A stretch of 39,028 bases of DNA from a virus. The notes under the pieces are model-generated. The model saw only the letters and a program-made list of their open reading frames with translations. It had not been told where the DNA came from and made no database searches. Location of the stretch: positions 1 through 39,028 of IMG/VR virus record IMGVR_UViG_3300010430_000200. The stretch is one strand, 5' to 3'. Below, in pieces: positions 12,533 to 39,028 of the stretch. The translations under genes were made by a program, and so were the position numbers. Position 1 is the stretch's first letter. Each line of letters starts with the position of its first letter.

Positions 12533-13171
12533 CTATAAATTAGTGTTTTTATACTTCCAAGTGTTAGGTAGCCCTTTTCTTTTTGGCAAGTCCTGCATTT
12601 CTGGCAAGTTCTCTTCCATAAACATTATACCCATGATGTTCCATAGTACTGCTGATAAATGGTCCTCATCATCATATCCATCAAGATACTTTCCTAAGTG
12701 TCTCATCGCAGCGTCATAGAATCTGCTTACAGGCTGACCTTTCTCCCAGTTTCTATCGTCATATTTCTTAGCACCACGCTCATAGTGTAACGCTAATCTT
12801 GCTAATGGTCCAAAAGGTATTAAATCAAATCTACCTTTGTTCTCAGCTTGGTCTCTCATAGAACCAGTATCGAACGTTTCTATTTGTCCTGATGATGGTA
12901 AATCTGTTGGGTCATATACACCATTATTAGATTCCCCTAACACTTCTTTAATTACTTTATCTAAGTTTTCAGAATTGTCTGAATCTTCAAAAATATCTTC
13001 ACTCCAAGCTAAATCGTAATTGTCTTCCAATAATCGATACCATCCCTCCTTATTCTTAGATATTGTAACTATACATCCAGCCAATTTTTCCATTGCATCT
13101 ACATAGTACGAATCACAATCTCTAGGTATAACATCTTTTACTTTGACCTTGTCTCCAACTTCATACTTCAT
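12533..13171 (-). CDS. SH3-like domain fused to DUF5664 (dATP/dGTP diphosphohydrolase-like) domain
   Basis: A 212-residue protein. Residues 1-63 (MKYEVGDKVKVK...) match the small SH3-like family repeated in this block. Residues 113-190 look like DUF5664, described as dATP/dGTP diphosphohydrolase N-terminal domain: RFDLIPFGPLARLALHYERG, YDDRNWEKG, MRHLGKYLDGYDDEDHLSAV, with the His and acidic residues of an all-alpha nucleotide hydrolase core. It may adjust dNTP pools during replication. No PurZ-like gene was seen, so a link to base-modified DNA is not supported. AAGGAGGAG precedes the start. Confidence 0.72.
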   Translation of the reverse strand: MKYEVGDKVKVKDVIPRDCDSYYVDAMEKLAGCIVTISKNKEGWYRLLEDNYDLAWSEDIFEDSDNSENLDKVIKEVLGESNNGVYDPTDLPSSGQIETFDTGSMRDQAENKGRFDLIPFGPLARLALHYERGAKKYDDRNWEKGQPVSRFYDAAMRHLGKYLDGYDDEDHLSAVLWNIMGIMFMEENLPEMQDLPKRKGLPNTWKYKNTNL

Positions 13172-19622: not shown

Positions 19623-19651
19623 ATTATATCACCTTTTTGTTCCTCTGTCAA
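19623..19651 (-). promoter_or_regulatory. Leftward promoter inside the early block
   Basis: Minus-strand TTGACA (19651-19646), 17-nt spacer, TATAAT (19628-19623): a perfect consensus. The spacer GAGGAACAAAAAGGTGA resembles that of the 21566-21594 promoter, so the two may be duplicated or co-regulated. Confidence 0.8.
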
Positions 19652-21565: not shown

Positions 21566-21594
21566 ATTATACATCACCTTTGTTCTTTTGTCAA
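21566..21594 (-). promoter_or_regulatory. Leftward early promoter
   Basis: Minus-strand TTGACA (21594-21589), 17-nt spacer AAAGAACAAAGGTGATG, TATAAT (21571-21566): a perfect consensus. It lies 30 bases upstream of the 21283-21534 gene. Confidence 0.82.
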
Positions 21595-21877: not shown

Positions 21878-21899
21878 CTTCTCCACTCTCCTTTCTAAA

Positions 21900-21928
21900 T
21901 TGTCAAAGTTGTCAGAATATTCTATTAA
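21900..21928 (+). promoter_or_regulatory. Weak inward-facing promoter-like element, left of core
   Basis: TTGTCA (21900-21905), 17-nt spacer containing TCAGAATATTC, TATTAA (21923-21928). No gene follows; it would transcribe into the AT-rich core and could make an origin transcript. Confidence 0.35.
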
Positions 21929-22370
21929 TGAGTAAACGTAAAATTTTACGGTTTTTTTTACGTTTTCTAAAATCGCTCTAGCCCTTTACTGGTCTATCTT
22001 AGAGTGCTGTCTTTTACCTTGTGATGTGAACGTACAAAAACTTTAAGAACGTTGTAACCATAGGGTTTATAGCTGTTTTTTACTGTTTTATATACTTTTT
22101 TTAATGTAAAAAGATATATAGAATATAATAGTGTAATATATAGTATAATATATAAATATATAGTATATATAAAGTTTTAGATTTTAAAAACAGTAAAATA
22201 GTAAAAAGATTGCTGGAACCCCTTTAAACATAGGGTTTTCATTTTTATGTAACATATGTTACGCTTTGTATTTTTATCGTCTGTAGCCCTTTATTCATCA
22301 GTGTTTGCTAAATTGTCAGAATTTTACGTTTTCAAAATAGTAATCGTAAAAAAACAGTAAAAAAACGTAA

Positions 22371-22399
22371 AATAATAAGTATTCTGAATTATCTGACAA
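22371..22399 (-). promoter_or_regulatory. Weak inward-facing promoter-like element, right of core
   Basis: Minus strand TTGTCA (22399-22394), 17-nt spacer with TTCAGAATAC, TATTAT (22376-22371). It mirrors the element at 21900-21928. Confidence 0.35.
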
Positions 22400-22562
22400 T
22401 TGTGACAATTTAAGCCGATTTATTAATGTTGTCAAAGTGCCCGTAACGCTGGTATTTATTGATGTTGCTGTTATTTACTTGTTATTTGTTAAATGTATTC
22501 ACACCCTTAACCGACTCAACGGAGGAACAAATGTTTTACTGGTGGTATTTAACTGTTAACTT

Positions 22563-22591: not shown

Positions 22592-22934
22592 ACGAATGTA
22601 CAATTAATTTATTTCTTTTATTACTATATATAAAGTATATCAGATAGATATTAACTGGTGGTGTATAAGATGTTACAAAAGTATTAACAATTGTTACATA
22701 AATGTTAACTGGTGTAGAAGTGAAAACCTCCCAGCGTGAAGTGGTGCAGTGTGGGAACGTATGTTCGATGGAAAATGAGGGGGTATAGCCAGTGGGGATA
22801 GTATTCAGACTATTCAGAGAATTGGGAATTGTGAAAAATCTTTTTGGGGGGTGGGGGTCTGTAAGTAAGGCACCACTTAGAACCGACAAATTTTAAAAGT
22901 TACATTCCCTTCCCAAAAGAAACAACACTGCCTA
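22592..22934. other. Gene-free segment with G-rich tract and TTAACTGGTG repeats
   Basis: No supported gene. TTAACTGGTG-type repeats occur near 22535, 22651 and 22705. The part from about 22715 to 22865 is distinctly richer in G on the plus strand, with a tract of G runs at about 22840-22857. The one minus-strand frame across it has no ribosome binding site and an unnatural composition. It could hold packaging or control sites; nothing is proven. Confidence 0.4.
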
Positions 22935-22963
22935 TTGACAAACACCAATAATCATGTTATACT
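22935..22963 (+). promoter_or_regulatory. Rightward promoter of a short leader/sRNA
   Basis: TTGACA (22935-22940), 17-nt spacer, TATACT (22958-22963). It shares TGCCTATTGACAAA with the next promoter (23052), so the two look duplicated, but it lacks the TCAGAATA box. Confidence 0.75.
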
Positions 22964-22969
22964 ATAGAT

Positions 22970-23043
22970 GAATAAATCATTATATTTTACCTCCTGTTTA
23001 AATACAGGAAACACTAAGACGTTTGTGGGGAAGCGTCTTTTTT
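22970..23043 (+). ncRNA. Candidate small RNA or attenuated leader
   Basis: Between a near-consensus promoter and a strong terminator lies about 74 nt with two hairpins: TCCTGT-TTAAAT-ACAGGA (22992-23009), then the terminator. The first includes ACCTCCT (22989-22995), the same sequence as the anti-Shine-Dalgarno end of 16S rRNA, so it could pair with ribosome binding sites. A reading frame starting at 22968 crosses it but has no ribosome binding site. It may be a regulatory RNA or a short attenuated leader. Confidence 0.45.
23016..23043 (+). terminator. Terminator of the small RNA/leader
   Basis: AAGACG (23016-23021) pairs with CGTCTT (23034-23039) and runs into TTTTTT. It ends 8 bases before the -35 of the next promoter. 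Confidence 0.75.
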
Positions 23044-23051
23044 GTTGCCTA

Positions 23052-23080
23052 TTGACAAATAGTCAGAATAGTGCTATAAT
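23052..23080 (+). promoter_or_regulatory. Rightward promoter with TCAGAATA box
   Basis: TTGACA (23052-23057), spacer AATAGTCAGAATAGTGC (17), TATAAT (23075-23080). It drives the 23103 gene, the tRNA cluster and probably the terminase genes. Confidence 0.85.
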
Positions 23081-23102
23081 ATATACAAAGGAGGAGATAA
23101 AG

Positions 23103-23447
23103 ATGAATAGAGCGGAGATTTTAGAAAATACATTACAAGCAAAATTTGTGGTAGAACAAGAGTTAAAAAGAAAGTTCACTGACATCAGTAATTTTTTGAT
23201 TAACCTACCATATATTGATTGGGTGCACACTGAGGAGTGGGAAGACGGGTTATGTGAGATAGACCTGACAACTGCTGGGAGTAACGTGAGAATTAGCGTT
23301 ACATATGATACTCAGTTTATAGTTAGAGGTCAATTAGGCAATGTCAATATGGACGCTATAATGAGTGATTTAATATTTTATTTAGGAGGAGCTGACGACA
23401 ATGAAGAAAATTATGAAGAAATTGGGCAAGATAACAATAACATTTGA
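23103..23447 (+). CDS. Small hypothetical protein, first rightward gene
   Basis: A 114-residue acidic protein (MNRAEILENTLQAKF...), helical at the start with a strand-rich middle (CEIDLTTAGSNVRISVTY) and a very acidic tail. The ATG at 23103 follows AAGGAGGAG; a longer frame from 22968 crosses the terminator and lacks a site. No family recognised. Confidence 0.7.
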   Translation: MNRAEILENTLQAKFVVEQELKRKFTDISNFLINLPYIDWVHTEEWEDGLCEIDLTTAGSNVRISVTYDTQFIVRGQLGNVNMDAIMSDLIFYLGGADDNEENYEEIGQDNNNI

Positions 23448-23559
23448 TAAGTACACTGCATTTTCAATAGCAATAATGTTCAATGTGTGGAGTAAGTATG
23501 AGATGGACTTTAGTATTCAACTAGGGAAATATGAGTTAGTAATAGAATATAAGAAATAA
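23401..23559 (+). CDS. Very small hypothetical protein
   Basis: A 52-residue basic protein (MKKIMKKLGKITITFDKYTA...). It overlaps the previous gene by 47 bases and uses AGGAGG, 11 bases upstream of the ATG. The UUCG hairpin and tRNA cluster follow. Function unknown. Confidence 0.55.
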   Translation: MKKIMKKLGKITITFDKYTAFSIAIMFNVWSKYEMDFSIQLGKYELVIEYKK

Positions 23560-23564
23560 TTAAC

Positions 23565-23576
23565 GCCCTTCGGGGC
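23565..23576 (+). other. UUCG tetraloop hairpin before the tRNA cluster
   Basis: GCCC-TTCG-GGGC, an extra-stable cUUCGg hairpin, three bases upstream of tRNA-Trp. A similar one precedes the tRNA-like element before terL. Confidence 0.55.
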
Positions 23577-23579
23577 TAT

Positions 23580-23651
23580 GCACCTTTAGTATAATTGGCA
23601 GTACAGCGGTCTCCAAAACCGTTAGTTGAGGTTCAAATCCTTGAGGGTGTG
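23580..23651 (+). tRNA. tRNA-Trp (anticodon CCA)
   Basis: A 72-nt cloverleaf. The acceptor GCACCTT pairs with AGGGTGT (G1-U72), D-arm GTAT/GTAC, anticodon arm GCGGT-CTCCAAA-ACCGT with CCA, T-arm TGAGG-TTCAAAT-CCTTG, discriminator G. No CCA is encoded. Confidence 0.9.
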
Positions 23652-23656
23652 TTTAT

Positions 23657-23730
23657 AGCGGGATGATGCAGTTAGGTAGCAGACAAGTCTCATAAGCTCG
23701 TAGCCGAGGGTTCAAATCCCTCTCCCGCAA
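23657..23730 (+). tRNA. tRNA-Met (CAT), initiator-like
   Basis: A 74-nt cloverleaf with anticodon loop CTCATAA. The T-stem GAGGG/CCCTC sets the acceptor as AGCGGGA against TCCCGCA, leaving an A1-A72 mismatch; an unpaired 1-72 is the hallmark of bacterial initiator tRNA, and the overall sequence resembles GCGGG...CCCGCAA initiators. But the anticodon stem (CAAGT/GCTCG) lacks the three G-C pairs of true initiators and has one mismatch. Confidence 0.85.
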
Positions 23731-23733
23731 TAT

Positions 23734-23807
23734 ACAGGTGTAGTTCAGTTTGGAAGAACGCTAGTTTTGGGAACTAGAGGTCGTAGGTTCGAGCCCTGCC
23801 ACTTGTA
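23734..23807 (+). tRNA. tRNA-Pro (anticodon TGG)
   Basis: A 74-nt cloverleaf. Acceptor ACAGGTG pairs with CACTTGT, D-stem GTTC/GAAC, anticodon arm CTAGT-TTTGGGA-ACTAG with TGG, T-arm GTAGG-TTCGAGC-CCTGC, discriminator A. No CCA is encoded. The terminase small subunit gene starts 26 bases later. Confidence 0.9.
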
Positions 23808-23833
23808 CTAAAAATAAAAGAAAGGATGGTAAT

Positions 23834-24367
23834 ATGAGTATATTAGATAATTTAAAGAATGAAGAAGTAATTGAGAAAGTTGAAGCTGAAATAGTACCAC
23901 AAGAAGAAATCAAATACACACATAAATTGACTAAACATATACTTGATAGTGTTGAAGATTGGACTTCTAACGGTTTACCTAAGAGAAACATAGCTACGGC
24001 TATAGGCGTATTGCCAACAACTCTTAATAAATGGTTAAGACGTGGTCTAGAAAATGTTCAAGATTATGAAGATGGTGAAGTTGCATATATGGATTTATAT
24101 GGTCAGTTTTATATTAACTATCATATGGGTCTAAACAAATTTGAAGAAACTCAATTAGGTATGATTGATGCTAGTAAAGATTATAAAGCTCATATATGGA
24201 GATTACAACAAGCATTTAAAGGCGAAGAACATGACAACTATAAAGAAGAAACTAAGATTGTTGTTGAGAATAAGTATTCAGAATATACGTCAGACCAATT
24301 AAAATCAGAAGTTTTAAAGAAGTTGGGTATCATTACACATCAGGATGAGAACCCATTAAATTTATAG
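23834..24367 (+). CDS. terS: Terminase small subunit
   Basis: A 177-residue protein with a helix-turn-helix (LPKRNIATAIGVLPTTLNKW, about 48-67) followed by helices and a charged C-terminal tail, the layout of small terminase subunits that recognise the packaging site and feed DNA to the large subunit. The gene precedes terL, with a zinc-ribbon gene between. AAAGGATGG precedes the ATG. Circular permutation of the assembly is compatible with headful packaging. Confidence 0.8.
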   Translation: MSILDNLKNEEVIEKVEAEIVPQEEIKYTHKLTKHILDSVEDWTSNGLPKRNIATAIGVLPTTLNKWLRRGLENVQDYEDGEVAYMDLYGQFYINYHMGLNKFEETQLGMIDASKDYKAHIWRLQQAFKGEEHDNYKEETKIVVENKYSEYTSDQLKSEVLKKLGIITHQDENPLNL

Positions 24368-24396
24368 TTGCAATTTTCAGAATATTGTGATATAAT
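24368..24396 (+). promoter_or_regulatory. Rightward promoter with TCAGAATA box
   Basis: TTGCAA (24368-24373), spacer TTTTCAGAATATTGTGA (17), TATAAT (24391-24396), overlapping the terS stop region. It drives the zinc-ribbon gene at 24417. Confidence 0.8.
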
Positions 24397-24416
24397 AAAG
24401 AAAAGGAGGAATTAAC

Positions 24417-24692
24417 ATGAAGGAATTAACAAACGGAAATTACTTTCCATGCCCACACTGTGGAGAAGATGCATTAGAAATATATAATGATATGCTCGTA
24501 GAAATGGGAGATGGAACTTTAATAAAGGTAGAAGAGTTACCAATGCTAATGTGTGAAAGCTGTGGTCAAGTTACAGTTAAAGACGAGAATGGTGACATTA
24601 TAAAAAATACTGTAATGAAGAAAATGGTAGAAATATTAGATAATAGAGATAAGTTAGATTTAGAAGGACTTATGAAATTTAAAGCTGAATAA
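24417..24692 (+). CDS. Zinc-ribbon protein
   Basis: A 91-residue protein with CPHCG and CESCG pairs about 30 residues apart, which should bind one zinc, as in YgiT/MqsA-type zinc fingers. Its own promoter and AAGGAGG site precede it. It lies between the terminase subunits; role unknown (a transcription factor for late genes is one option, since it is the only gene before a terminator on this transcript). Confidence 0.75.
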   Translation: MKELTNGNYFPCPHCGEDALEIYNDMLVEMGDGTLIKVEELPMLMCESCGQVTVKDENGDIIKNTVMKKMVEILDNRDKLDLEGLMKFKAE

Positions 24693-24730
24693 TGAGCGTG
24701 CTCTCTAGATAGGGCACACTATTCATTTTT
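24691..24730 (+). terminator. Terminator-like hairpin after the zinc-ribbon gene
   Basis: GTGCTCT (24698-24704) pairs with AGGGCAC (24711-24717); AATGA/TCATT extends the stem, and TTTTT follows. terL lies beyond it with no evident promoter of its own, so readthrough or antitermination is implied. Confidence 0.6.
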
Positions 24731-24739
24731 ATACTCCGA

Positions 24740-24755
24740 GGGGGCTTCGGCTCCC
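24740..24755 (+). other. UUCG tetraloop hairpin before the tRNA-like element
   Basis: GGGGGC-TTCG-GCTCCC, a stable cUUCGg hairpin between the terminator-like hairpin and the tRNA-like element. Confidence 0.6.
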
Positions 24756-24761
24756 GCATAA

Positions 24762-24807
24762 CGAGAGACTATGGTTAGCTAGACAGGTTCAATCCCTGTA
24801 ATCTCGA
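24762..24807 (+). ncRNA. Reduced tRNA-like element before terL
   Basis: CGAGA (24762-24766) pairs with TCTCG (24802-24806), enclosing a small CTA...TAG arm and a canonical T-arm, ACAGG-TTCAATC-CCTGT (24783-24799). About 46 nt, without normal D or anticodon arms and without CCA. The terL ribosome binding site GTAGGAGGAG follows at once. It shares this layout with the element at 16760-16799. Confidence 0.55.
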
Positions 24808-24824
24808 AAGTAGGAGGAGTTAAA

Positions 24825-26387
24825 ATGTACAAAGAATCTAAAATAACAGGAGAAAATAAAATACGTATCAATTCAATGGATGACATAGCTGAGTTAAACT
24901 CACTATCAGATGAAGAAATTAAAGACCTTCTTGAAATGATTGATGCTGAGTTGGCAAGTGCAATGAATGATAGTTACTTGTCTTTTTTACGTGAGAGCCA
25001 TGACGGTTTTGTAGTAGGAAAACACACTCAGTATTTGACTCACAAATTAGAGGAATTTATGGCTGGAGATAAGAAATTTTTGGTTATATCAATGCCACCA
25101 CAACATGGTAAGTCATTGACAGTAACAGAGAGTTTTCCAGCATGGTATGTAATGAAAAACCCAAAGAAAAGAGTTATTTTGACTGCATATAACAGTGATT
25201 TTGCTACAGACTTTGGTAGAAAAAATAAAGATAAAATAGAAAGATTTGGTCATCACTTTAATGTGAGCCTTAATCCATTAGCTAAAAGAAACGATAAGAT
25301 GTTTATAAATGGTTATGGAGGTTCAATCATGTGTTTTGGTATCATGTCAGGTATTACTGGTAAAGGTGCTGATTTAATAATAATTGATGACCCTATTAAA
25401 AATAGACAGGAAGCAAACTCTAAGACAACTAGAGAGAGTGTATGGGATGAAATACTTGACTCTGTAAATACAAGACTTTCTGCCGATGGGAAGATAATCT
25501 TCATCATGACTAGATGGCATGAAGATGACCCAGTAGGTAGAATAATTGATATAGTTCCAGAGCAATGTGAGATTATTAATATACCTTTAGAGGCTGACGA
25601 AGATGACCCTCTTGGTAGAGAAGTTGGAGAACCACTTTTCCCAGAGATAGGTAAGGATGCTAAATGGCTAGAAGAAACTAAAAGAATGTACACACAAAAG
25701 AAAGGTAAATTGAGTTGGGAGGCTTTATATAATGGGAAACCATCTATAGCAGAAGGTAACTTATTAAAAGCAGAACACTTTAATTATTATAAGAAAGAAG
25801 ACTTACCAGAGAAATTCCCAGTATTGATTTTGTCTGTTGATACAGCATTAAAAGATGGAGAAGATAATGACTGGACTGTAATTCAAGCTTGGGGTAAGAT
25901 AGGACCAGATTTCTATATGTTAGATATAACTAGAGGACACTGGAACTTTACACAGATGGTATCAAATATAAGGATGATGCACAATCACTGGAAGCCACAG
26001 CAGACTCTAATTGAAGCAAAGGCTGCGGGTCAACCAGTAATTGATGTACTTAGAAGAACCATCACAGGAATCATACCAGTAGTACCAAAAGACGGTAAGG
26101 TTTCAAGAACACAAGCTATATTGGGTGCTGTAGAAGGTGGAAATATTTATATACCAGAGGACCACTTATTAACTTATGATTTTGTGGAAGAATGTAAATC
26201 ATTCCCTAATGGTAAAAATGATGATATGGTTGATGCCTTTACACAAGCTGTATACAGACTAATGTATCAAACAGCAGAGTTGGCAAGACCAAAACCAAAA
26301 CCAGACCCATTTGGAAGAATATTACACAAAGAACCTGACCAAAACGTATATGGTATAGGAGACATAGGAGGTTTTATGAAATGGTAG
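24825..26387 (+). CDS. terL: Terminase large subunit
   Basis: A 520-residue packaging motor. The ATPase domain has Walker A MPPQHGKS (90-97), Walker B LIIIDDP (184-190) and a coupling-type segment (IIFIMTRWHEDDPVGR). The C-terminal RNase H-like nuclease begins at LSVDTALKDGEDNDWTV and ends with NGKNDDMVDAF. It pumps DNA into the prohead through the portal and cuts it. GGAGGAG precedes the ATG. It overlaps the next gene by 7 bases. Confidence 0.96.
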   Translation: MYKESKITGENKIRINSMDDIAELNSLSDEEIKDLLEMIDAELASAMNDSYLSFLRESHDGFVVGKHTQYLTHKLEEFMAGDKKFLVISMPPQHGKSLTVTESFPAWYVMKNPKKRVILTAYNSDFATDFGRKNKDKIERFGHHFNVSLNPLAKRNDKMFINGYGGSIMCFGIMSGITGKGADLIIIDDPIKNRQEANSKTTRESVWDEILDSVNTRLSADGKIIFIMTRWHEDDPVGRIIDIVPEQCEIINIPLEADEDDPLGREVGEPLFPEIGKDAKWLEETKRMYTQKKGKLSWEALYNGKPSIAEGNLLKAEHFNYYKKEDLPEKFPVLILSVDTALKDGEDNDWTVIQAWGKIGPDFYMLDITRGHWNFTQMVSNIRMMHNHWKPQQTLIEAKAAGQPVIDVLRRTITGIIPVVPKDGKVSRTQAILGAVEGGNIYIPEDHLLTYDFVEECKSFPNGKNDDMVDAFTQAVYRLMYQTAELARPKPKPDPFGRILHKEPDQNVYGIGDIGGFMKW

Positions 26388-26674
26388 AATTTTTATTAGG
26401 AGTAGGTTTTGTATCTATATTATATGTTGGATATGTCGTATTTAATAATTATAATGATTTAAAAATGACAATATCAGATAAAAATAATAAGATTTCAGAA
26501 TTATTAGAATATTCAGAAAATTTAGAAAAACAATTAGAAGGTTACAGAGAAATGGATTTATTAAGTAAAGAAGATTACAAATCAAGAATAGATGGACAGA
26601 AAAAATTTAATGATGGATTGACTAGCATTTTAAATTTCGACGGTGAAGTTTTTAATGTTGTTAGTAAAAAATAA
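26381..26674 (+). CDS. Membrane-anchored coiled-coil protein
   Basis: 97 residues: a transmembrane helix (FLLGVGFVSILYVGYVVF), then a coiled coil (KNNKISELLEYSENLEKQLE). It is translationally coupled to terL and followed by the portal gene, an unusual place for a membrane protein. Function unknown. Confidence 0.65.
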   Translation: MVEFLLGVGFVSILYVGYVVFNNYNDLKMTISDKNNKISELLEYSENLEKQLEGYREMDLLSKEDYKSRIDGQKKFNDGLTSILNFDGEVFNVVSKK

Positions 26675-26688
26675 AAAGGAGGAAAGTT

Positions 26689-28416
26689 ATGGCTAATAAG
26701 AACAAAAATGGTTACACGGATATATGGAATGAATATAGACAAGGTATCGAATATAATCAAAATATATCATATTATAGAAATTCAAAGATTAATGAGAGAT
26801 TCCTTAGTGGAGACCAATGGTATGGTGTAGATTCAAAAGGTTTACCGACACCACAATTTAATATTTTTAAAAGAGTATTTGCTTTTATAAGAGCTTATCT
26901 TAAAACATCTGCTATAGCAGTTAAATTTACAGCAGAAGGTGTTGATTTAAGTAAATCAAAAGAAGACATGAGCAATGAAGAGCAATTAATAGCAAAAACA
27001 CTAGAAGTTCTTCATAAGAAAATTAACCAACATATGGAAGATTGTAAGATGGACCAAATTATTTCAGAAGTATTAAATGACGCTGTTATAACTGGAGATT
27101 TTGCTTCATTCACTATGTGGGACCCAAATATTAAAAATGGTAAAGTTAAAGGAGACTTTGTTACAAAGAGAATTTATGGAGCTAAAGTATTATTTGGTAA
27201 TCCTAATACTAGAGAGGTAAATGGTAGAGGTATTCCAACTCAACCTTACATACTATTAGAAGGAAGAGATACAGTTAGAAATTTAAGAATGGAATTAGAA
27301 CAAGATTGGAAAGAAAATAAAAGAGGTCCTAAAGAAGATTTAGAATTAAAGAAAAAAAGAATCCAACCAGATTCTGTACCTGCTGAAACTCAATCGAGTG
27401 ACAGAGCATTAGTTGAATTAAAAACAACAAGTGATAATGCTAAAGCTACATATATTATAAAATTAGAGTATGACTTAGAGACTAAAACTATTAAACAAAG
27501 TAAGTCTACAAGAGACTGTGATATTTATAAAGATAAAGATACGGGATTAACTCAATATCCTGTAGCTTGGGAAAACTGGGAAACAAGAAATGACAGTTAT
27601 CATGGTCAATCACCAATGACTGGTTATATTCCAAATCAAGTTTTCATTAACAAAGCATTAGCAATAGTTATGATTGGTATGATGAATAATGCATCACCAA
27701 AAGTAGCATATGACAACACTAGAATTAATGGTATAGCTAATACTGTTTCAGGTTCTATATCAGTATCAGGACCAGTAAATGATGCTATTAAAGTTATTAA
27801 TTCAGGGCAATTACCTAATAGTATTGTTGACTTAATACAAATGGTAGCTAAGATTACTATTGAGGCTCTAGGAGGAAATGAAGTTGTTTTAGGTAACGTT
27901 GCTCCAGAAAATAAATCTGCGATTGTACAAGTTACACAACAAGCATCAATTCCTTATGAAAATCAAAAAGGTGCACTATATAACTTTATGGAACAAAATG
28001 CATATATTTGGATTGACTTCTTAAAGAATAAATATGGTAAGATACCTGTGGAATTAACATTAACAGATGATGATGGTAACCAATATACAGAAACTCTTGA
28101 TTTAAAACCTATCTTAGATAAGGAAATTAAAGTTAAAGTAGATATTGGACCAAGTTCATATTTCTCAGAGCTTGATGATAAAGCTATCTTAGATAACTTA
28201 TTAACAGCTGGATTAATTGATGTTATTGATTACTTAGAAAGATTACCAGAAGGTAAAATACCTAAGAAGAGAGAGTTAATAAACTCACTTAAATCTAAAA
28301 TAACTGGAGAAGGCGATGCTGAGAGAGATGCTGAATTTGAAAAAGTAGCATTATTCATAGAGCAACTGCCAGTAGAGTTCCAAGAAGAATTTGAAAGAAT
28401 AATGGTAATGGAATAA
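26689..28416 (+). CDS. Portal protein (P22-type)
   Basis: A 575-residue protein forming the dodecameric portal vertex through which DNA is packaged and leaves. The N-terminal part (ERFLSGDQWYGVD, PQFNIFKRVFAFIRAYLKTS) and the middle part (NDAVITGDFASFTMWDPN, MTGYIPNQVFINKALA) fit podovirus P22-like portals. The order terL - portal - scaffold - capsid supports it. AAAAGGAGG precedes the start. Confidence 0.88.
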   Translation: MANKNKNGYTDIWNEYRQGIEYNQNISYYRNSKINERFLSGDQWYGVDSKGLPTPQFNIFKRVFAFIRAYLKTSAIAVKFTAEGVDLSKSKEDMSNEEQLIAKTLEVLHKKINQHMEDCKMDQIISEVLNDAVITGDFASFTMWDPNIKNGKVKGDFVTKRIYGAKVLFGNPNTREVNGRGIPTQPYILLEGRDTVRNLRMELEQDWKENKRGPKEDLELKKKRIQPDSVPAETQSSDRALVELKTTSDNAKATYIIKLEYDLETKTIKQSKSTRDCDIYKDKDTGLTQYPVAWENWETRNDSYHGQSPMTGYIPNQVFINKALAIVMIGMMNNASPKVAYDNTRINGIANTVSGSISVSGPVNDAIKVINSGQLPNSIVDLIQMVAKITIEALGGNEVVLGNVAPENKSAIVQVTQQASIPYENQKGALYNFMEQNAYIWIDFLKNKYGKIPVELTLTDDDGNQYTETLDLKPILDKEIKVKVDIGPSSYFSELDDKAILDNLLTAGLIDVIDYLERLPEGKIPKKRELINSLKSKITGEGDAERDAEFEKVALFIEQLPVEFQEEFERIMVME

Positions 28417-28441
28417 TTATCTGAATATTCTGGAGAAAGAG

Positions 28442-28470
28442 TTGACAATATTCAGAATATTTGGTATAAT
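28442..28470 (+). promoter_or_regulatory. Late promoter with palindromic TATTCAGAATA box
   Basis: TTGACA (28442-28447), spacer ATATTCAGAATATTTGG (17), TATAAT (28465-28470). The box is the perfect 13-base palindrome ATATTC-A-GAATAT; a second half-site-like CTGAATATTCTGG lies upstream (about 28421-28433). It drives scaffold and capsid genes. Confidence 0.85.
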
Positions 28471-28493
28471 ATAACTATAATAAAAATAAAATA

Positions 28494-28530
28494 AGCATAG
28501 ACCAATGCTACATACGTAGACCAATGTATG
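28494..28530 (+). promoter_or_regulatory. Twin AGACCA-loop hairpins in the scaffold leader
   Basis: Hairpin 1: AGCAT-AGACCA-ATGCT (28494-28509). Hairpin 2: CATACGT-AGACCA-ATGTATG (28511-28530). Both show the same six-base loop on different stems, so the loop is what is kept. They lie between the late promoter and the AAAGGAA site of the scaffold gene. They could bind a protein, stabilise the 5' end or control translation. Confidence 0.65.
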
Positions 28531-28545
28531 GGAAAGGAATTTATT

Positions 28546-29334
28546 ATGGAAAATTTACAAAACGTACAAGAGCCTGTGGAAAACACAGCACCAGTTACTG
28601 AGGAAGTAGTGATAGACCAACCTACAGAAACAGATAACACACCTACATTTGATACTTATACAATTAAGCATATGGATGAGGAGATAGTTGTTGATTCATT
28701 AGAAAAGCAACAATCACTTTTAAACAAGGGTGCTGATTACGACAGAATTAAAGCTAAGTACGATGAGGCTTCAAATGACCCATCTAAAAATGTTATCAAA
28801 GCATTTGCTGACAGATATGGATTAAGTCAAGAAGAAGCTGTAGCAGAATTGAAAGGTCAACTTTATCAAGATGAACTATCTCAATATGCTAAAGACAATG
28901 GTTTTGGGGAAGACCTAGAGAGAGCTAAAAAGTTTTATGAACTTGAAAAAAGAGATAATACTTATACTCAAAAGGACAAAGACGAACAAGCCAAATTAAA
29001 AAGAGAGCAGGATTTAATGGACTTTATTGATTTCCAAAAGGAATTTTATGACAAAGACATTACTGCCGAAGACATTCCTAACGAAGTTTGGGAACAATAT
29101 GAAAACGGTAAGAGCATGACCGAAGCGTTCTTAAAACATGAATTAAAAATGAAAAAAGAACAAGCCGAAATAGACGCTCAAAATAAAAAGAATGACGATA
29201 CTGTTATTCCAGATGTAACTCAACACTCAGCTAAAGACGAAAACGTTATTAGTGCTGAATGGTTAGCTAATGCTACACCAAAAGAAGTTGCGGCGAGATG
29301 GGATGAAGTAATGGCTTTCAAAAACAAAAAATAG
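28546..29334 (+). CDS. Scaffolding protein
   Basis: A 262-residue, strongly acidic and helical protein: a disordered N-terminus (VQEPVENTAPVTEEVV), long charged helices (KRDNTYTQKDKDEQAKLKRE) and a small C-terminal helical domain likely to bind the capsid protein (EWLANATPKEVAARWDEVM). Position just before the capsid gene is typical. The ATG at 28546 follows AAAGGAATTTATT; an ATG six codons upstream lies within hairpin 2 and has no site. Confidence 0.85.
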   Translation: MENLQNVQEPVENTAPVTEEVVIDQPTETDNTPTFDTYTIKHMDEEIVVDSLEKQQSLLNKGADYDRIKAKYDEASNDPSKNVIKAFADRYGLSQEEAVAELKGQLYQDELSQYAKDNGFGEDLERAKKFYELEKRDNTYTQKDKDEQAKLKREQDLMDFIDFQKEFYDKDITAEDIPNEVWEQYENGKSMTEAFLKHELKMKKEQAEIDAQNKKNDDTVIPDVTQHSAKDENVISAEWLANATPKEVAARWDEVMAFKNKK

Positions 29335-29348
29335 GAGAGTGAAAAATT

Positions 29349-30206
29349 ATGGCAATATTAGATAACCTAACAAACACGACAGAAACTCTTTTATCAGCTA
29401 AACTTATCAAAGTATTACAAACTAGACTAGTTGCTAAAAGAATCTGTACTTTAGAAACAAACACTGAAATAAAAAGAAAAGGTGAGGCTGTAGACTTCCC
29501 AAGTTTAGCATCACCAACTGTAAAAACTTATGACGGAACTGTAGTATTTGAAACACTTTCAGATGCTGTTATCACATTAACTGTGGACCAAGCTGAATAT
29601 GTAGCTGTGAAGTTCGGGGATATTGAATTATTCCAAAGTTCAATAGATGCAAAGGGAGCAACTGCTGAGCAAGCTGGTTACAAATTAGCTGACTCAATGG
29701 ATAAGTATATCTTAGGATTATACACAGAAGCTGGAATAAGCTACAAAGCTGGAGCAAACGTTACAGTTAACTCAAGCAACGTATTAGAAGTAATTTCTGA
29801 TATAGCAATAGAGTTAGAAGAAAACAACGTTCCAAACGGACAATCATGGATAGTACTTGCACCATGGTTAAAGCAAAAACTTTTACTTGCTGGTGTTAAA
29901 TTCGGAATCAACGAAGGTATGGCAGGAGAAAAAGGTGGACTTGCATGGGTTAAATATAATGACTTAGACATTTATATTTCAAACAACGTACCAACTACTG
30001 AGACTTTAGGACTTAAAACTTCTCAAATCATGTCTGGTATGTACAACTCAATTGCTTTCGTAGAGCAAATAACTGAAACTAAGATTGATGACAATCCACA
30101 AGATTACTTTGGATATGAAATGAAATCATTAGCAGTTTACGGTGGTAAAGTAATCAGACCTGATGCTTTATTACACGCAGTACTTGAAGAAATCGCTGAG
30201 GCGTAA
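29349..30206 (+). CDS. Major capsid protein
   Basis: A 285-residue protein with HK97/P22-coat-like features: an N-terminal helix (LLSAKLIKVLQTRLVAKRIC), strands of an E-loop-like region (KGEAVDFPSLASPTVKTYDG), the long helix with YKLADSMDKYILGLYTEAG, and a C-terminal GKVIRPDALLHAVLEE. It follows the scaffold gene and is followed by a strong terminator, fitting a highly expressed shell protein. The codon choice is regular. Confidence 0.9.
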   Translation: MAILDNLTNTTETLLSAKLIKVLQTRLVAKRICTLETNTEIKRKGEAVDFPSLASPTVKTYDGTVVFETLSDAVITLTVDQAEYVAVKFGDIELFQSSIDAKGATAEQAGYKLADSMDKYILGLYTEAGISYKAGANVTVNSSNVLEVISDIAIELEENNVPNGQSWIVLAPWLKQKLLLAGVKFGINEGMAGEKGGLAWVKYNDLDIYISNNVPTTETLGLKTSQIMSGMYNSIAFVEQITETKIDDNPQDYFGYEMKSLAVYGGKVIRPDALLHAVLEEIAEA

Positions 30207-30212
30207 TAATAT

Positions 30213-30247
30213 AAAAGAGGGTAGGGGTTTAGCCCTTACTCTTTTTT
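30213..30247 (+). terminator. Terminator after the capsid gene
   Basis: AAAAGAG and GTAGGGG pair with CCCTTAC and CTCTTTTTT around a short loop. It probably lowers expression of downstream tail genes relative to the capsid gene. Confidence 0.8.
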
Positions 30248-30270
30248 AATATAGAATAGGAGGAATGGAT

Positions 30271-30492
30271 ATGAAATTAGGAAAAAAAGTTAGATTCATT
30301 GGAGCACCAAATATGGCATATATGACAGGTAAAATAGGTGCTAAAAGACTTATAGCTAAGTTCGATGATAAGGGATTCTTTGAAACAGACGATACTAAAA
30401 TAGCGTATCTATTAGAAGAAAAAGGACTACCTTATAATGAAGTTAATCCTGATAAAGAACAGCTAGAAGCTACCAAAGAATTATTTGATTAA
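30271..30492 (+). CDS. Small virion-associated protein candidate
   Basis: A 73-residue protein (MKLGKKVRFIGAPNMAYMTG...) with FDDKGFFETDDTKIAYLLEEKG. Short proteins of this type, in which a strand pair is followed by 'ETDD.K.AYLL..KG', are common just behind capsid genes. The ATG at 30271 is set by AGGAGG with 7 bases spacing; an ATG six bases upstream is too close to it. Confidence 0.7.
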   Translation: MKLGKKVRFIGAPNMAYMTGKIGAKRLIAKFDDKGFFETDDTKIAYLLEEKGLPYNEVNPDKEQLEATKELFD

Positions 30493-30506
30493 TAGGAGGT
30501 TATATT

Positions 30507-30632
30507 ATGGAAGATATGAGAAGCAAGAAATTAAATAGAGCTGAAATGGGTTCTAAAAAAATAGAAAAAATAGAAAAAATAGAAAAGAAAGTTAAGAGAT
30601 ACAAAAATTATAATAAAAACGAAGACAAATAA
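30507..30632 (+). CDS. Very small basic protein
   Basis: A 41-residue Lys-rich protein with three KIE repeats (GSKKIEKIEKIEKKVKRYKN). Strong AGGAGG upstream. It lies between two structural genes; function unknown. Confidence 0.55.
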   Translation: MEDMRSKKLNRAEMGSKKIEKIEKIEKKVKRYKNYNKNEDK

Positions 30633-30647
30633 TCGGGAGGTGATTAT

Positions 30648-31211
30648 ATGTTACAAAATTATACTAAGAATAAATTAGAGGAGTTTTTAGAAAATGTTTC
30701 ATTTGATACTTCGGTTACTGTGAATACTCATGTTCATAGATTAATACATGAGGGTAAAATGTTTATGGTGCCACACATATTTTTAGCAGTTGCACCGGGA
30801 GCGACAATATATTTAAGACATTACGGAGCAACAACTAAATATCTTAACAGTATACTTGATATAAATACTGTTGGTGAGTGGACTTTTACATCATATTCAG
30901 GAACTACATACACTGCTGATGGTACTGAAATAACACCAGTAAATAGAAAGAGTGATTCCACTGAGGTTCTAGAAAGTACATTTGAATATAATCCAGTAAT
31001 AGATGTTCTAGGTACACCTAGATTACCAATAAGATTTGGTTATGCTGATATTCCTGCTAAAGCAAGCACTAGTGAGTTTAATGAAGCACTTGAATCAGTA
31101 TTTGCACCGGGAACAGATGTATTAATAGGATTAAAGAATGAAAGTGTGAGTAAAACTTATTATTTATCAATTTTATTTAATGTATACGAAGACGAAAATG
31201 GAAATGAATAA
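30648..31211 (+). CDS. Virion protein, possibly head decoration
   Basis: A 187-residue beta-rich protein (VTVNTHVHRLIHEGKMFMVP, GATIYLRHYGATTKY, GTDVLIGLKNESVSKTYYLS). The alternating strands suggest a sandwich fold. Placement between capsid and connector genes suggests a head-associated protein; no family was recognised. GGGAGGTG precedes the start. Confidence 0.6.
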   Translation: MLQNYTKNKLEEFLENVSFDTSVTVNTHVHRLIHEGKMFMVPHIFLAVAPGATIYLRHYGATTKYLNSILDINTVGEWTFTSYSGTTYTADGTEITPVNRKSDSTEVLESTFEYNPVIDVLGTPRLPIRFGYADIPAKASTSEFNEALESVFAPGTDVLIGLKNESVSKTYYLSILFNVYEDENGNE

Positions 31212-31229
31212 TTAAAGAGAGGTGATTAT

Positions 31230-32141
31230 ATGAAAGCAATAGAAGTATTTGAAAGAGCAATGGACCTTATGGACGAAAGAGAAGACAATGGTACATTAGA
31301 TGCTCAAAGTGTTATAAACTATAAAGCTAAAGCTCCGGGTATATTGACTATATATCAAAATGAGTTGCTTAGAGAAGCTGATTATTTTAAGACATATGAG
31401 ATAACTAATAACTATATTAAACCTTTAGACTCACATGAAGCTGAACAAGACCACAACACTGATGATATTATATTTGAATATGAAAATGGCTTTAAAGCTT
31501 ACACATTTGAATGTAATTCTACAGCTACTGTGTACATTGAGGAGTTCGACGGTACATGGCAAATACTAGAACAAATAGATATAAGCATAGATAAAATGAG
31601 TTATCAAAGATTTCACAATAAAGTTACATCTACTAATAAGATGAGGATTAGATTCGCTGGAGATTATTTTTATAAAATCAAAAATTTAGCTGTATATAAA
31701 GAAAATTTCAATAATATTGATAATATACCTAGAGGTGGAGATTTTATCAGATATGAATTACCAACGGATTTTAATTCACAACATGATATTAGTAAAATAC
31801 TTGTTAATGGTTCATTTGTTAAAACTACAGAATATCAATGGTTAGGAAAAAGAACACTATTATTACCTAAAAAGTTTAATGGTACAATGGTTATTGAATA
31901 TAGACCAACACCTCCAAATATAACTGATTTAGAAAATGACGATTTGGTAGTAGATGATGTTACATCAATAACTTGCCTATCTTACGCATTAGCAACAGAG
32001 TTGATGATTGCAGATGAGAATCCTAATGCATCATACTACAATGGTAAGTATGAGGAAGCTAGGGATTTAGCTAGAAGAGACAGAAGATTAGAAGTTACAA
32101 ATAATGAAGATGTCATAAGCACAAGTTTGGACGTGTGGTAA
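31230..32141 (+). CDS. Head-to-tail connector / tail adaptor
   Basis: A 303-residue protein: an N-terminal helical part (MKAIEVFERAMDLMDEREDN), a middle beta domain (FECNSTATVYIEEFDGTWQI), and a C-terminal helix with ATELMIADENPNASYYNGKYEEA typical of adaptor-type proteins (P22 gp4 / T7 gp11 role). It would sit below the portal. The beta domain inside the helical fold is unusual but seen in other Gram-positive podovirus-like phages. The next gene starts two bases later. Confidence 0.72.
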   Translation: MKAIEVFERAMDLMDEREDNGTLDAQSVINYKAKAPGILTIYQNELLREADYFKTYEITNNYIKPLDSHEAEQDHNTDDIIFEYENGFKAYTFECNSTATVYIEEFDGTWQILEQIDISIDKMSYQRFHNKVTSTNKMRIRFAGDYFYKIKNLAVYKENFNNIDNIPRGGDFIRYELPTDFNSQHDISKILVNGSFVKTTEYQWLGKRTLLLPKKFNGTMVIEYRPTPPNITDLENDDLVVDDVTSITCLSYALATELMIADENPNASYYNGKYEEARDLARRDRRLEVTNNEDVISTSLDVW

Positions 32142-32142
32142 G

Positions 32143-33921
32143 ATGGCTACGATACCAAAGAAAAGAAGAAAAGACCCTTTTAAACTAACTAAGTTTGAAG
32201 GACTTTGGTTAGAGGACACTGGGGATACTCAAATCCCTGTAGGTGCCTCTGGTAACATGACAAACTTCTATCCAACTAAGCTTAAAAAATTAAAAAAGAC
32301 GGAGGGTTATAAAAGATTATTTGATTCGATTGGAGCATTTAGAATAAACGCACTATGGAATGGTAACATTCAAGGTGTAAATACTACATTGTTTATATCA
32401 AATAGTAATCTTTATAAACTAGACTTAACAGATAATACTTACGTTAGTGTAGGTTCAGTAACTGATGCAGATGCTACAATATTTGGATTTGAAGATAAAG
32501 CTTATATAATCAATGGTTCTGAATACAAGGTTTATGATGGTAGTACATTACAAGACGTTGTTGACACAGCTTATATACCTTTAACATTTACAGCACAAAC
32601 TCCAAATAGAAGTTCTAGTACTGCACTTGAGAATATAAACTTATTAACTGGGGCAAAAAGAGAAAGATTTATATCAGACGGTACTACTACAATATATCAA
32701 CTTGCAGAAACAAATATAGATAGTGTTGACTTTGTCAGATACTTAATTGGTGGTTCATTACCAGCATGGAATGTTGACTTAGTAAAAGGTCAAATTATAT
32801 TTACATCACCACCTACATCATCACTAATAGATGATATTGAAATAGAATATACTAAAGGTTCTGGTGCTCCTGAGGATGTATATAAAAATAAATATGCAAC
32901 TATATATGGTCAAAGTAATGACACAAGAGTTTTCTTATTCGGTAATGAAGACCAAAAAGATAGTTTAACATATTCAGGACTTGCAGACGGTGTGGCTACA
33001 GCTACATATTTTCCAGCATTAAGTTTTATACAAGTTGGGAGTCAAAATACTCCAGTAATGGATATGGTTGTATCAAATACTAGATTTGTAATATACAAAG
33101 AAGACAGAGCGTATATTGGTTACTATCAATATTCACCAACTGTTGGTACTCCAGAGTTCCCAACAAGTCCACTGGATTATATGGTTACAAAGGCGTATGC
33201 ACAAACTCAAGTTGTGAACAGTGTTCCTTTAAGTATTGGTAATAAAATATTATCATTAGTAGGAACAAACGTTAGAGATGAGCGTAATATTGAACCTATA
33301 AGTGATAGGATACAAAATGATTTAGATAATCTAGATATGAGTAAGGCTGTAACTGTTGACTGGGAATCTAAGCAATGGTACTTAATGGCTATAGATGATA
33401 AAGTTTATATATATGATTATGAAATAGGAACATTTGCTAGATTACACATAGCACATAATGTTACTAAATTCATTGAAATAGATAGAGAATTGTACTTCGG
33501 TACAGATGATGGTATGATTATGAAGTTTGATGAAGATGAATTAACATTCGACGGTGAAGTTATAAACGCTCACTGGGAAATGAATTTTGAAGACTTCGGT
33601 GCATCTTGGGTTAAGAAATCTATAAGAGAACTTTGGATTTCGTTATTCCCTAAAAATAAAAGTAGAATTGATGTCAGTTTAACATTGAGTTCAAACTCAC
33701 CATCTACTATTAGAACTATAAGATATGAAAATCTTGATTTCGAAAATGTTGATTTCTCTGATTTCAGTTTTAGCACAAGTTATAATCCACAACCATTTAG
33801 AGTAAGAATAAAAGGTAAAAAGTTTGCATACATGAAGGTTGAGCTAGATAATAACTATGAAAAAGATGCAACAATATTAGAAATAACACTACCAATAAAT
33901 TACGGTGGTAAAATAAAATAA
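32143..33921 (+). CDS. Tail nozzle / stabilisation-type protein
   Basis: A 592-residue beta-rich protein with repeated Tyr/Asp strands (TLFISNSNLYKLDLTDNTYV, YLMAIDDKVYIYDYEIGTFA, YFGTDDGMIMKFDEDELTFD), consistent with the propeller-like nozzle of short tails (T7 gp12 / P22 gp10 role). The opening FEGLWLEDTGDTQIPVGASG is a typical start for this family. It follows the adaptor by one base. Confidence 0.78.
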   Translation: MATIPKKRRKDPFKLTKFEGLWLEDTGDTQIPVGASGNMTNFYPTKLKKLKKTEGYKRLFDSIGAFRINALWNGNIQGVNTTLFISNSNLYKLDLTDNTYVSVGSVTDADATIFGFEDKAYIINGSEYKVYDGSTLQDVVDTAYIPLTFTAQTPNRSSSTALENINLLTGAKRERFISDGTTTIYQLAETNIDSVDFVRYLIGGSLPAWNVDLVKGQIIFTSPPTSSLIDDIEIEYTKGSGAPEDVYKNKYATIYGQSNDTRVFLFGNEDQKDSLTYSGLADGVATATYFPALSFIQVGSQNTPVMDMVVSNTRFVIYKEDRAYIGYYQYSPTVGTPEFPTSPLDYMVTKAYAQTQVVNSVPLSIGNKILSLVGTNVRDERNIEPISDRIQNDLDNLDMSKAVTVDWESKQWYLMAIDDKVYIYDYEIGTFARLHIAHNVTKFIEIDRELYFGTDDGMIMKFDEDELTFDGEVINAHWEMNFEDFGASWVKKSIRELWISLFPKNKSRIDVSLTLSSNSPSTIRTIRYENLDFENVDFSDFSFSTSYNPQPFRVRIKGKKFAYMKVELDNNYEKDATILEITLPINYGGKIK

Positions 33922-33934
33922 AGGAGATGATAAT

Positions 33935-35542
33935 ATGGCATTAAATAAATACACTGGTGGTAAAGGTAAAGTTCAAGCTTTATCAGACAAACCTAATGAA
34001 AATGAAGGTTTATCAGCATCAGAACTAAAACAAGTATTTGATGAAACTCCAGATGGTTTAGTTGATTTTTTAAATGATGACTTGACTGAGAATGTATACG
34101 ATAAAACAGAAGTTGATGATATTGCTGATAATTTTGTTTTAGGTGCAATTCCAGACACATCATTAACTAAAGATAAACTAGTAACAACTTTACAAAAAGA
34201 CATTGAGCTTGGTAGAGATGTTATGGTTGACACATCTGTGGTAGCCAATACTATCACAATAGTAACTGGTGGTTCAGGAATCACTGGACTTAAAGGTTCT
34301 GTAAAAGTTGCTAATACTAATACTGGACCAGTTACAATAAATATTGATGGTACAGACTACGATTTAAAGAAAAATATAACAGAAGACTTAGAAGCTGGGG
34401 ATGCTGGTATAGGAGAGGTTATAAACTTTGCGTATGATGGAACCAATGTTCAACTATTAAAAGCTTTTGTTAAAGCATCAATAGTGGATAGATTTCATAA
34501 AACAACTTCTGCTCCAGACGTCGACCATAGAGCATATACAATAAATACTGGTCAAGGAGTAAGTTTAATTGATGGTATGGTTGTATATATGGAGGCGGAT
34601 GAGGATTCTGTTAAAGGAGATGTCACATCTGATATAAATGATTTAACAGCCACTGGTAATAAAATAGTACATGGTTACAATAATAGTTATGGTGCATTTT
34701 ATGGTGATTCTGGTAATAAGGTATATTATACAGATTACTCAAGTAATAAAATATATCAAAGGACTCTTTCAACACCGTATGATATTGATACGGCAGGTGC
34801 TGAAACAAGCTTCGATATGTCTGGTACAGCTAGTACTCCAATGGGAGGTCATTGGCGTTCAGATGGTTTATTCTACTATATATTTAATAATGGTGATGAC
34901 AAAGTCAGAACATATAGTGTATCATCAGCATGGGATGTAACTACATCAACATATGAGGGAGTGTCTACAACAACATTTTCTTCAACTGCTGGTATGGCAT
35001 TAGAACCAGTTCCTATTGGTACTGGATCAGCTAAGGCTATATTTAGTAGAAGTGATGTTGCTGGTCGTATTGCAGAGTATACAGTAAGTTATGTTGATGG
35101 TGTATTAACATCAGGTTCATTTCAAACTAGTGTTGACGTTTCAGGAATATCTGGAACACTAAGGGGTGTACGATTCAATAGTGATGGCTCATTATTATAT
35201 GGTATAAACACTAGTCAAAACTTATATGAAATAACATTACCTACACCATATAATGCAGATTCAGCGACTCTAAATAAAACTAAGAATATAGGTATTGCAG
35301 GATATGATGTTGACTTTAATCCAGCATTGAATACATTCATAGTGGCTACAGGAATTGGTGAATTACTTGAATATATTAATGTTGAAACATATACTGAACC
35401 ACCATATGGAACATTAAATATTGATAGCACAGGAGATAAGAGCTTTACACAGACTATAGAAAAAGATAAAAATTATATGTTAAAGTATGATTTAACACAA
35501 GATAAATTCTTGGTTGTTTCTGATTACGGAATAGTATCTTAA
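33935..35542 (+). CDS. Tail fibre / receptor-binding protein with propeller-like domain
   Basis: A 535-residue protein. Residues 1-60 look like a virion-attachment domain (ALNKYTGGKGKVQALSDKPN). The middle is beta-rich (GTDYDLKKNITEDLEAGDAG). The C-terminal half has at least four propeller-like blades: YSSNKIYQRTLSTPYDIDTA, SDGLFYYIFNNGDDKVRTYS, SDGSLLYGINTSQNLYEITL, NTFIVATGIGELLEYINVET. It would contact the host surface. It is followed by a promoter-terminator pair. AAGGAGATG precedes the start. Confidence 0.75.
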   Translation: MALNKYTGGKGKVQALSDKPNENEGLSASELKQVFDETPDGLVDFLNDDLTENVYDKTEVDDIADNFVLGAIPDTSLTKDKLVTTLQKDIELGRDVMVDTSVVANTITIVTGGSGITGLKGSVKVANTNTGPVTINIDGTDYDLKKNITEDLEAGDAGIGEVINFAYDGTNVQLLKAFVKASIVDRFHKTTSAPDVDHRAYTINTGQGVSLIDGMVVYMEADEDSVKGDVTSDINDLTATGNKIVHGYNNSYGAFYGDSGNKVYYTDYSSNKIYQRTLSTPYDIDTAGAETSFDMSGTASTPMGGHWRSDGLFYYIFNNGDDKVRTYSVSSAWDVTTSTYEGVSTTTFSSTAGMALEPVPIGTGSAKAIFSRSDVAGRIAEYTVSYVDGVLTSGSFQTSVDVSGISGTLRGVRFNSDGSLLYGINTSQNLYEITLPTPYNADSATLNKTKNIGIAGYDVDFNPALNTFIVATGIGELLEYINVETYTEPPYGTLNIDSTGDKSFTQTIEKDKNYMLKYDLTQDKFLVVSDYGIVS

Positions 35543-35545
35543 TTA

Positions 35546-35574
35546 TTGCAATATTCTGAATAATATGGTATAAT
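35546..35574 (+). promoter_or_regulatory. Late promoter with TTCTGAATA box
   Basis: TTGCAA (35546-35551), spacer TATTCTGAATAATATGG (17), TATAAT (35569-35574). The box is the reverse-orientation form of that in the other late promoters. Confidence 0.8.
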
Positions 35575-35585
35575 AAAGATAACAA

Positions 35586-35623
35586 AAGTGAATAGGGGCA
35601 CGTCTTCTGTTCACTTATTTTTT
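35586..35623 (+). terminator. Terminator immediately after a promoter
   Basis: AAGTGAA (35586-35592) pairs with TTCACTT (35610-35616) and ATTTTTT follows. It lies only 12 bases beyond the -10 of the preceding promoter. It could end fibre-gene transcripts and also stop new transcripts after about 40 nt unless read through. Confidence 0.65.
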
Positions 35624-35640
35624 AAAAAGTAGGTGAAAAT

Positions 35641-38836: not shown

Positions 38837-39028
38837 ATGGGTATAAGAGAAGGAGAATTAATAAGCAAAGGCATAGAGGCTGGAGAATTTAAGTTTGATG
38901 ACCTTAATCCACAAGGACAAAAGGATGTTCTTGATTATGGTGAGGAGCAAGGTTTCTTAACAAAACAACAAAGAAGTAAAGCAAATAAGGAACTCAAATT
39001 ACCTACTGTTGGTGCTACAGTTGGGGCG
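38837..39028 (+). CDS. Large internal virion / ejection-type protein, 5' part (continues at base 1)
   Basis: The ATG at 38837 follows a strong AAAGGAGGTG. The first 23 codons precede the terminal overlap; reading on through 38906 (equal to base 1) gives the 1,143-residue protein described at 1-3363. This is a whole gene split by the assembly, not a truncated one. Confidence 0.9.
   Translation, partial: MGIREGELISKGIEAGEFKFDDLNPQGQKDVLDYGEEQGFLTKQQRSKANKELKLPTVGATVGA
38906..39028. repeat. Terminal direct repeat, right copy (circular overlap)
   Basis: Identical to bases 1-123. See that entry. Confidence 0.95.

Follow-up and report, generated by a model that had tools for sequence, protein, structure and literature searches.

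Promoters and operators in the window

The viral DNA analysed here (the window) comprises 39,028 nucleotides, positions 1 to 39,028 of IMG/VR record IMGVR_UViG_3300010430_000200. Its putative origin is an AT-rich region that separates divergent transcription units, and promoters of the form TTGACA-N15–19-TATAAT occur five times in the window versus 0.26 expected. Rightward promoters are listed below with the boxes, in or beside them, that resemble the CodY box of Firmicutes, AATTTTCWGAAAATT (PMC5314169); features without a strand are given by coordinates only, and box centres are relative to the predicted start.

22935–22963, + strand: fifth rightward promoter, TTGACA-17-TATACT; spacer without a CodY box, followed by a hairpin terminator at 23016–23039
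23052–23080, + strand: rightward promoter TTGACA-17-TATAAT, AATAGTCAGAATAGTGC; CodY-like box 23058–23072 AATAGTCAGAATAGT, 4 mismatches, centre -22; weakest box among the four promoters
24368–24396, + strand: rightward promoter TTGCAA-17-TATAAT, TTTTCAGAATATTGTGA; CodY-like box 24372–24386 AATTTTCAGAATATT, 1 mismatch, centre -24
28415–28438: CodY-like operator AATTATCTGAATATTCTGGAGAAA with 2+5 mismatches, upstream of the 28442 promoter; its boxes are centred at -55 and -46
28442–28470, + strand: rightward promoter TTGACA-17-TATAAT, ATATTCAGAATATTTGG; CodY-like box 28447–28461 AATATTCAGAATATT, 2 mismatches, centre -23
35546–35574, + strand: rightward promoter TTGCAA-17-TATAAT, TATTCTGAATAATATGG, inside feature 35541–35574; overlapping CodY-like boxes at 35541 (5 mismatches) and 35550 (3 mismatches, centre -24)

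The first-pass annotation had drawn attention to the promoters at 23052, 24368, 28442 and 35546, and its coordinates, the 17-nt spacers and the presence of TCAGAAT or its complement are all borne out. Of the five rightward intergenic promoters that rank strongest, four contain this one 7-mer, and none of 20,000 spacer shuffles gives four. The strong rightward promoter at 22935, which is without the 7-mer, had been missed. The promoter at 28442 drives an operon beginning at 28528, in the scaffold/capsid position. The box centres of all four promoters fall between -22 and -24 relative to the predicted start, where a bound protein would stand in the way of RNA polymerase. The leftward promoters at 22563, 21566, 19623 and 12504 were said to be free of the motif, and they are; no good box lies near them, the best having at least 4 mismatches within about 75 bp. 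The two inward-facing elements at the origin do carry the motif as described (22316 and 22381), and an additional, unlisted copy is found at 21912. A point omitted from that annotation is that 9 of the 17 copies of TCAGAAT/ATTCTGA are intragenic. Outside the four promoters, the following CodY-like boxes and operators were mapped.

3602–3634: three overlapping CodY-like boxes (summed mismatches 7, 6), within the DNA polymerase gene
8248–8280: three overlapping CodY-like boxes (sums 8, 6), within the helicase gene
11044–11076: three overlapping CodY-like boxes (sums 7, 8), within the PD-(D/E)XK nuclease gene
12964–12996: three overlapping CodY-like boxes (sums 7, 7), within the dATP/dGTP diphosphohydrolase-like gene
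14028–14051: overlapping CodY-like boxes (4+4 mismatches), within the phosphoesterase gene
21896–21922: left inverted arm of the putative origin; CodY-like box 21907–21921 AGTTGTCAGAATATT, 3 mismatches
22311–22325: CodY-like box AATTGTCAGAATTTT, 3 mismatches; the first of the inward-facing elements
22378–22412: right inverted arm of the putative origin; two boxes that overlap, at 22378 (5 mismatches) and 22387 AATTATCTGACAATT (2 mismatches); the second inward-facing element
22800–22823: non-coding 24-bp operator AGTATTCAGACTATTCAGAGAATT, 4+3 mismatches; the 22935 promoter follows about 110 bp downstream
26490–26531: four boxes in a chain, each offset from the next by 9 bp, within the small gene between terL and portal

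The putative origin is flanked by 27-nt inverted arms (21896–21922 and 22386–22412) that are 85% complementary, with a box in each. The best operator of the genome, 26499–26522 AATTATTAGAATATTCAGAAAATT with 3+1 mismatches, is part of the four-box chain. About half of the operator clusters are intragenic: leftward genes contain five, and a further one falls between terL and portal. Intergenic DNA, which makes up 8% of the window, holds about 7 of the 13 clusters. The proposal of a shared operator within late-promoter spacers, suited to a repressor, is supported. Its restriction to late genes does not fit the operators beside the putative origin and within early genes, and has to be widened.

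Box sequence, arms and 9-bp phasing

The spacer motif described earlier, TATTCWGAATA, makes a weak case when taken alone, since the whole window contains 46 copies with at most two mismatches versus 39.5 expected; it is not enriched by itself. This 11-mer forms the central part of a known and longer site, the CodY box AATTTTCWGAAAATT, and enrichment emerges with the 15-bp box and 9-bp phasing, not with the 11-mer alone. Allowing at most two mismatches, the window has 7 CodY boxes versus 0.80–0.89 expected (0.80 in dinucleotide shuffles), and 4 versus 0.084 in intergenic DNA, where boxes with at most three mismatches number 8 versus about 1. When 105 composition-matched palindromes were ranked by excess, the CodY consensus came first and the palindrome of the first-pass annotation, TATATTCWGAATATA, second. 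Sites for Spo0A, CcpA, TnrA, LexA, PerR, Fur and other regulators showed no notable enrichment in the window, and 82 other AT-rich phage loci (1.23 Mb) showed no clear excess (7 versus 4.9 expected).

Because the idea of CodY came after the core had been seen, two further tests were run that used other features of the site, namely its arms and its phasing. The window has 15 intergenic TCWGA cores; in 8 of them, seven or more of the 10 arm letters agree with CodY, against a background of 1.9% of intergenic positions; with the four promoter sites set aside, 5 of 11 cores still reach this level, and three control cores give 0 of 12. The box at 22387, AATTATCTGACAATT, is one base away from a CodY motif, tATTaTCTGAcAATT, contained in a strong braB binding site (PMC4608796).

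CodY operators typically consist of two 15-nt boxes with a 6-nt overlap (PMC10415144), and pairs are therefore expected at an offset of 9 bp. With pairs defined by summed mismatches of at most 7, giving a 24-bp overlapping operator, the window contains 13 pairs at this offset versus 0.19 expected, and the maximum across 300 shuffles is 3. Other offsets are sparsely populated: one pair at 10 bp, three at 11 bp, none at 12–17 bp and three at 18 bp, the last being expected from chains of three boxes. Within genes, 8 pairs are found versus 1.2 after synonymous-codon permutation, and none of 300 permutations reaches 8; the intragenic pairs are no by-product of codon use. Published functional CodY operators fall in the same range as those of the phage, with 2+4 mismatches at hutP, 5, 2 and 3 at ureA, and sums of about 5–7 per pair. 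At the 24368 and 28442 promoters the overlapping partner boxes are weak, with 6 mismatches, and this counts against the assignment to CodY, which usually relies on overlapping pairs.

The operator in other phages and its candidate binding protein

IMG/VR was scanned with the operator pattern, using the reversed pattern as a control. The scan recovered other phages with many operators, and the control gave 0. Two of these are large phages of 156 and 162 kb, which carry operators and over short stretches resemble the Bacillus phages BM15 and CM1; in the 162-kb phage, the main operator cluster lies near both ends. Four shorter contigs hold 9–35 pairs each, and two of these contigs contain non-coding arrays that span about 500 bp; up to 31 pairs occur at a single locus in these other phages. 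BM15 itself has two operator matches (at most three mismatches), one near either genome end. At the same threshold the 24-bp operator has 0 matches in SPbeta, SPO1, phi29, CM1, Wanderer, PWc, Page, PI-Sepi-HH2 and IME-EFm1. The terminases of two operator-rich contigs match Bacillota phages among the matches listed, and the operator-carrying phages whose kinship was tested are Bacillota phages.

Several other searches yielded little. A scan of viral contigs for the core in strong promoters returned mostly unrelated background, including a phage with repeated TTCTGAA promoters (L093/L154) whose proteins point to a proteobacterial host. Locus L329 is a coding repeat artefact. The sites are absent from the nearest portal relatives (Pagevirus and Bacillales prophages, L205–L225), which at 25–30% identity are too distant for conservation to be judged, and no relative of the helicase-primase was found among viral contigs.

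All five operator-carrying phages that were compared use the same 24-bp operator in the same phase as the window phage, and no proteins common to the window phage and these five genomes were detectable (best E 0.0018). Two phage proteins had been put forward as binders, a 69-aa Cro-like helix–turn–helix (HTH) protein (12272–12481) and a YokU-like zinc-ribbon protein (24417–24692); neither is supported, as neither has a counterpart in the five unrelated phages. That unrelated phages use one operator without a common protein is most simply accounted for by a host factor common to them, and among such factors CodY would best explain the shared site. The regulator that matches the site in core, arms and 9-bp overlap is CodY, which had not been considered previously. 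Searches for the two CodY families (PF06018, PF08222) detected neither, both in the window phage and in six other phage records. The hosts of the portal relatives are all Bacillales or Bacillota, and 8 of the 12 genomes tested among those that contain portal relatives encode CodY.

A proposed role for host CodY

CodY is a nutrient sensor of Gram-positive bacteria that is active with branched-chain amino acids, plus GTP in most Bacilli. We propose, with a probability of roughly 0.6, that the element is a CodY operator through which host CodY represses the late promoters, acting as a late-gene timer or nutrient gate. Active CodY would sit on the late rightward promoters, at the boxes centred between -22 and -24, and exclude RNA polymerase; it would also occupy the inverted arms of the putative origin and several of the intragenic overlapping operators. 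The leftward early promoters, lacking a good box, would be active from the outset. Once GTP and amino acids had fallen, through infection or host starvation, CodY would leave the late promoters and the late genes would start, so that the phage probably times its late genes with the nutrient sensor of its host. The sequence, phasing and positions of boxes and operators, and their excess over both chance and other phages, were computed; from these we infer CodY binding, repression and the trigger. The weak box at 23058 (4 mismatches) may matter little, and the advantage to a lytic phage of shutting off late genes under rich conditions is not obvious.

A serious rival, although an unlikely one as the main function, is that the operators act as a sponge: they would mainly titrate host CodY as phage DNA accumulates, freeing host genes for amino-acid synthesis and transport, with promoter control secondary. 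Intragenic operators away from promoters, in excess over synonymous shuffles, are what titration would call for, as are the arrays of about 500 bp and up to 31 pairs per locus in other phages. Against it, the operators are concentrated in the small intergenic fraction, and titration does not need a fixed position in four promoters. The two roles are compatible, and the dense arrays in other phages suggest taking CodY away from the host as a second use.

That a phage-encoded repressor, the Cro-like HTH protein or another, binds the operators, which would then resemble CodY boxes by convergence, is comparably improbable. The phage does encode an HTH protein, and phage repressors commonly overlap promoters, but this explanation has to face the recurrence of the operator, in its 9-bp phase, in five unrelated phages that have no detectable protein in common with this one, as well as arms and a 6-bp overlap that are specifically CodY-like. 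Repeated intergenic 15-bp operators are also known from SPBRE/MrpR of Bacillus phage SPbeta, where a phage repressor binds them (PMC10516654); the window-phage operator has no match in the whole SPbeta genome (134,416 bases).

Chance, or descent of the promoters from one ancestral copy whose shared spacer would carry no regulatory meaning, is very unlikely: positions 24366–24397 do match the 28442 promoter region with 88% identity over 32 bp, but the boxes lie in both orientations and also outside promoters, their arms match beyond the promoters, and the pairs keep the 9-bp phase. MerR-type promoters need spacers of 19–20 nt, and the activator of this type suggested by the first-pass annotation from the palindrome between -35 and -10 is very unlikely, being disfavoured by normal 17-nt spacers in all four promoters and by the same operator at the putative origin and in genes.

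Comparison with known regulators

Use of host master regulators by phages is known; CodY in that role would be new, and no report of CodY at phage late promoters was found in the literature searched, subscription journals being largely outside it. Temperate phages read LexA, and Caulobacter-type phages read CtrA (PMC9437464). Sites for CtrA in promoters of unrelated Alphaproteobacteria phages were convergently gained, and 'lytic deferment' has been proposed for them (PMC9437464). CtrA, however, is a cell-cycle regulator whose binding was shown experimentally; the CodY sites described here are predicted from sequence. In the account cited in PMC9437464, the virulent Bacillus phage phi29 has promoters with sites for Spo0A, a nutrient-linked master regulator of the host; it differs in that Spo0A acts in starvation and CodY in plenty, and Spo0A boxes are unenriched in the window.

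If the CodY reading is true, CodY joins LexA, Spo0A and CtrA on the short list of host regulators read by phages, and a lytic phage would rely on the main nutrient sensor of its host for the timing of late genes, without a late regulator of its own for this step. Burst timing in Gram-positive hosts would then be linked with levels of GTP and amino acids, and the old question of how a phage perceives the nutritional state of its host would become testable by standard CodY assays. Whether unrelated Bacillota phages independently acquired CodY operator networks, tying development to host GTP and branched-chain amino acids, stands at even odds. Such networks would take the form of promoter boxes here, terminal-repeat clusters in the large Bacillus phages and dense non-coding arrays elsewhere, and would read, and sometimes trap, the host nutrient sensor.

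CodY operators of Bacillus subtilis (hutP, ureA and braB) resemble those of the phage in matching AATTTTCWGAAAATT with 1–5 mismatches, in their 6-nt overlap, and in lying both in promoters and in gene interiors (PMC10415144, PMC4608796). The putative phage operators differ from Bacillus CodY sites in being placed at late promoters and the putative origin, and their density far exceeds that in three Bacillus-type chromosomes that were scanned. These chromosomes have few copies of the strict phage operator (0, 0 and 5), a point against the CodY reading; CodY's own chromosomal sites are therefore more degenerate.

Predicted RNA structure in rightward transcripts

Hairpins are predicted in rightward transcripts at the following positions in the window:

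22935-23048, rightward: promoter 22935, whose spacer lacks a CodY box (the 15-bp site at which CodY binding is predicted), with a strong hairpin and T-run ~55 nt past it; fold z of the predicted RNA, -3.3
28494-28533, rightward: leader of the operon that starts at 28528 and is driven by promoter 28442, with two hairpins in succession, each displaying TAGACCAA; fold z, -2.7
35581-35624, rightward: 13-pair hairpin and U-run near the very start of the transcript predicted from promoter 35546; fold z, -4.3

Judged from its sequence, promoter 22935 would produce an RNA of ~75 nt, within which lies ACCTCC, a motif resembling an anti-Shine-Dalgarno sequence. The double-hairpin leader has the appearance of a protein-binding or attenuator site.

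Leftward spacers and genome ends

The spacers of two leftward promoters, 21566-21594 and 19623-19651, have GAACAAA(AA)GGTGAT in common, which is possibly a separate early operator. The ~120 bases at the start of the window (1-122) are repeated at its end (about 38907-39028), which suggests that the record is a complete genome, either circular or circularly permuted.

Operators and promoter repeats in other phages

CodY-type operators, in which two boxes overlap at a 9-bp offset, form non-coding arrays at two loci of other phages, L250 (array at 5214-5726; 31 overlapping pairs in the locus) and L236 (array at 7425-7970; 22 overlapping pairs in the locus). The operators of both arrays match better than published chromosomal CodY sites, and on sequence grounds the arrays are candidate CodY sponges. 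A large Bacillus-type phage (L289, genome G005) carries an operator cluster close to each genome end (1529-2450 and 157651-158572), apparently within terminal repeats. An unrelated phage (L093/L154), whose proteins point to a proteobacterial host, has a repeated promoter family of four strong, near-identical members, TTGACAyTTGTTCTGAAwTGATGTATAAT.
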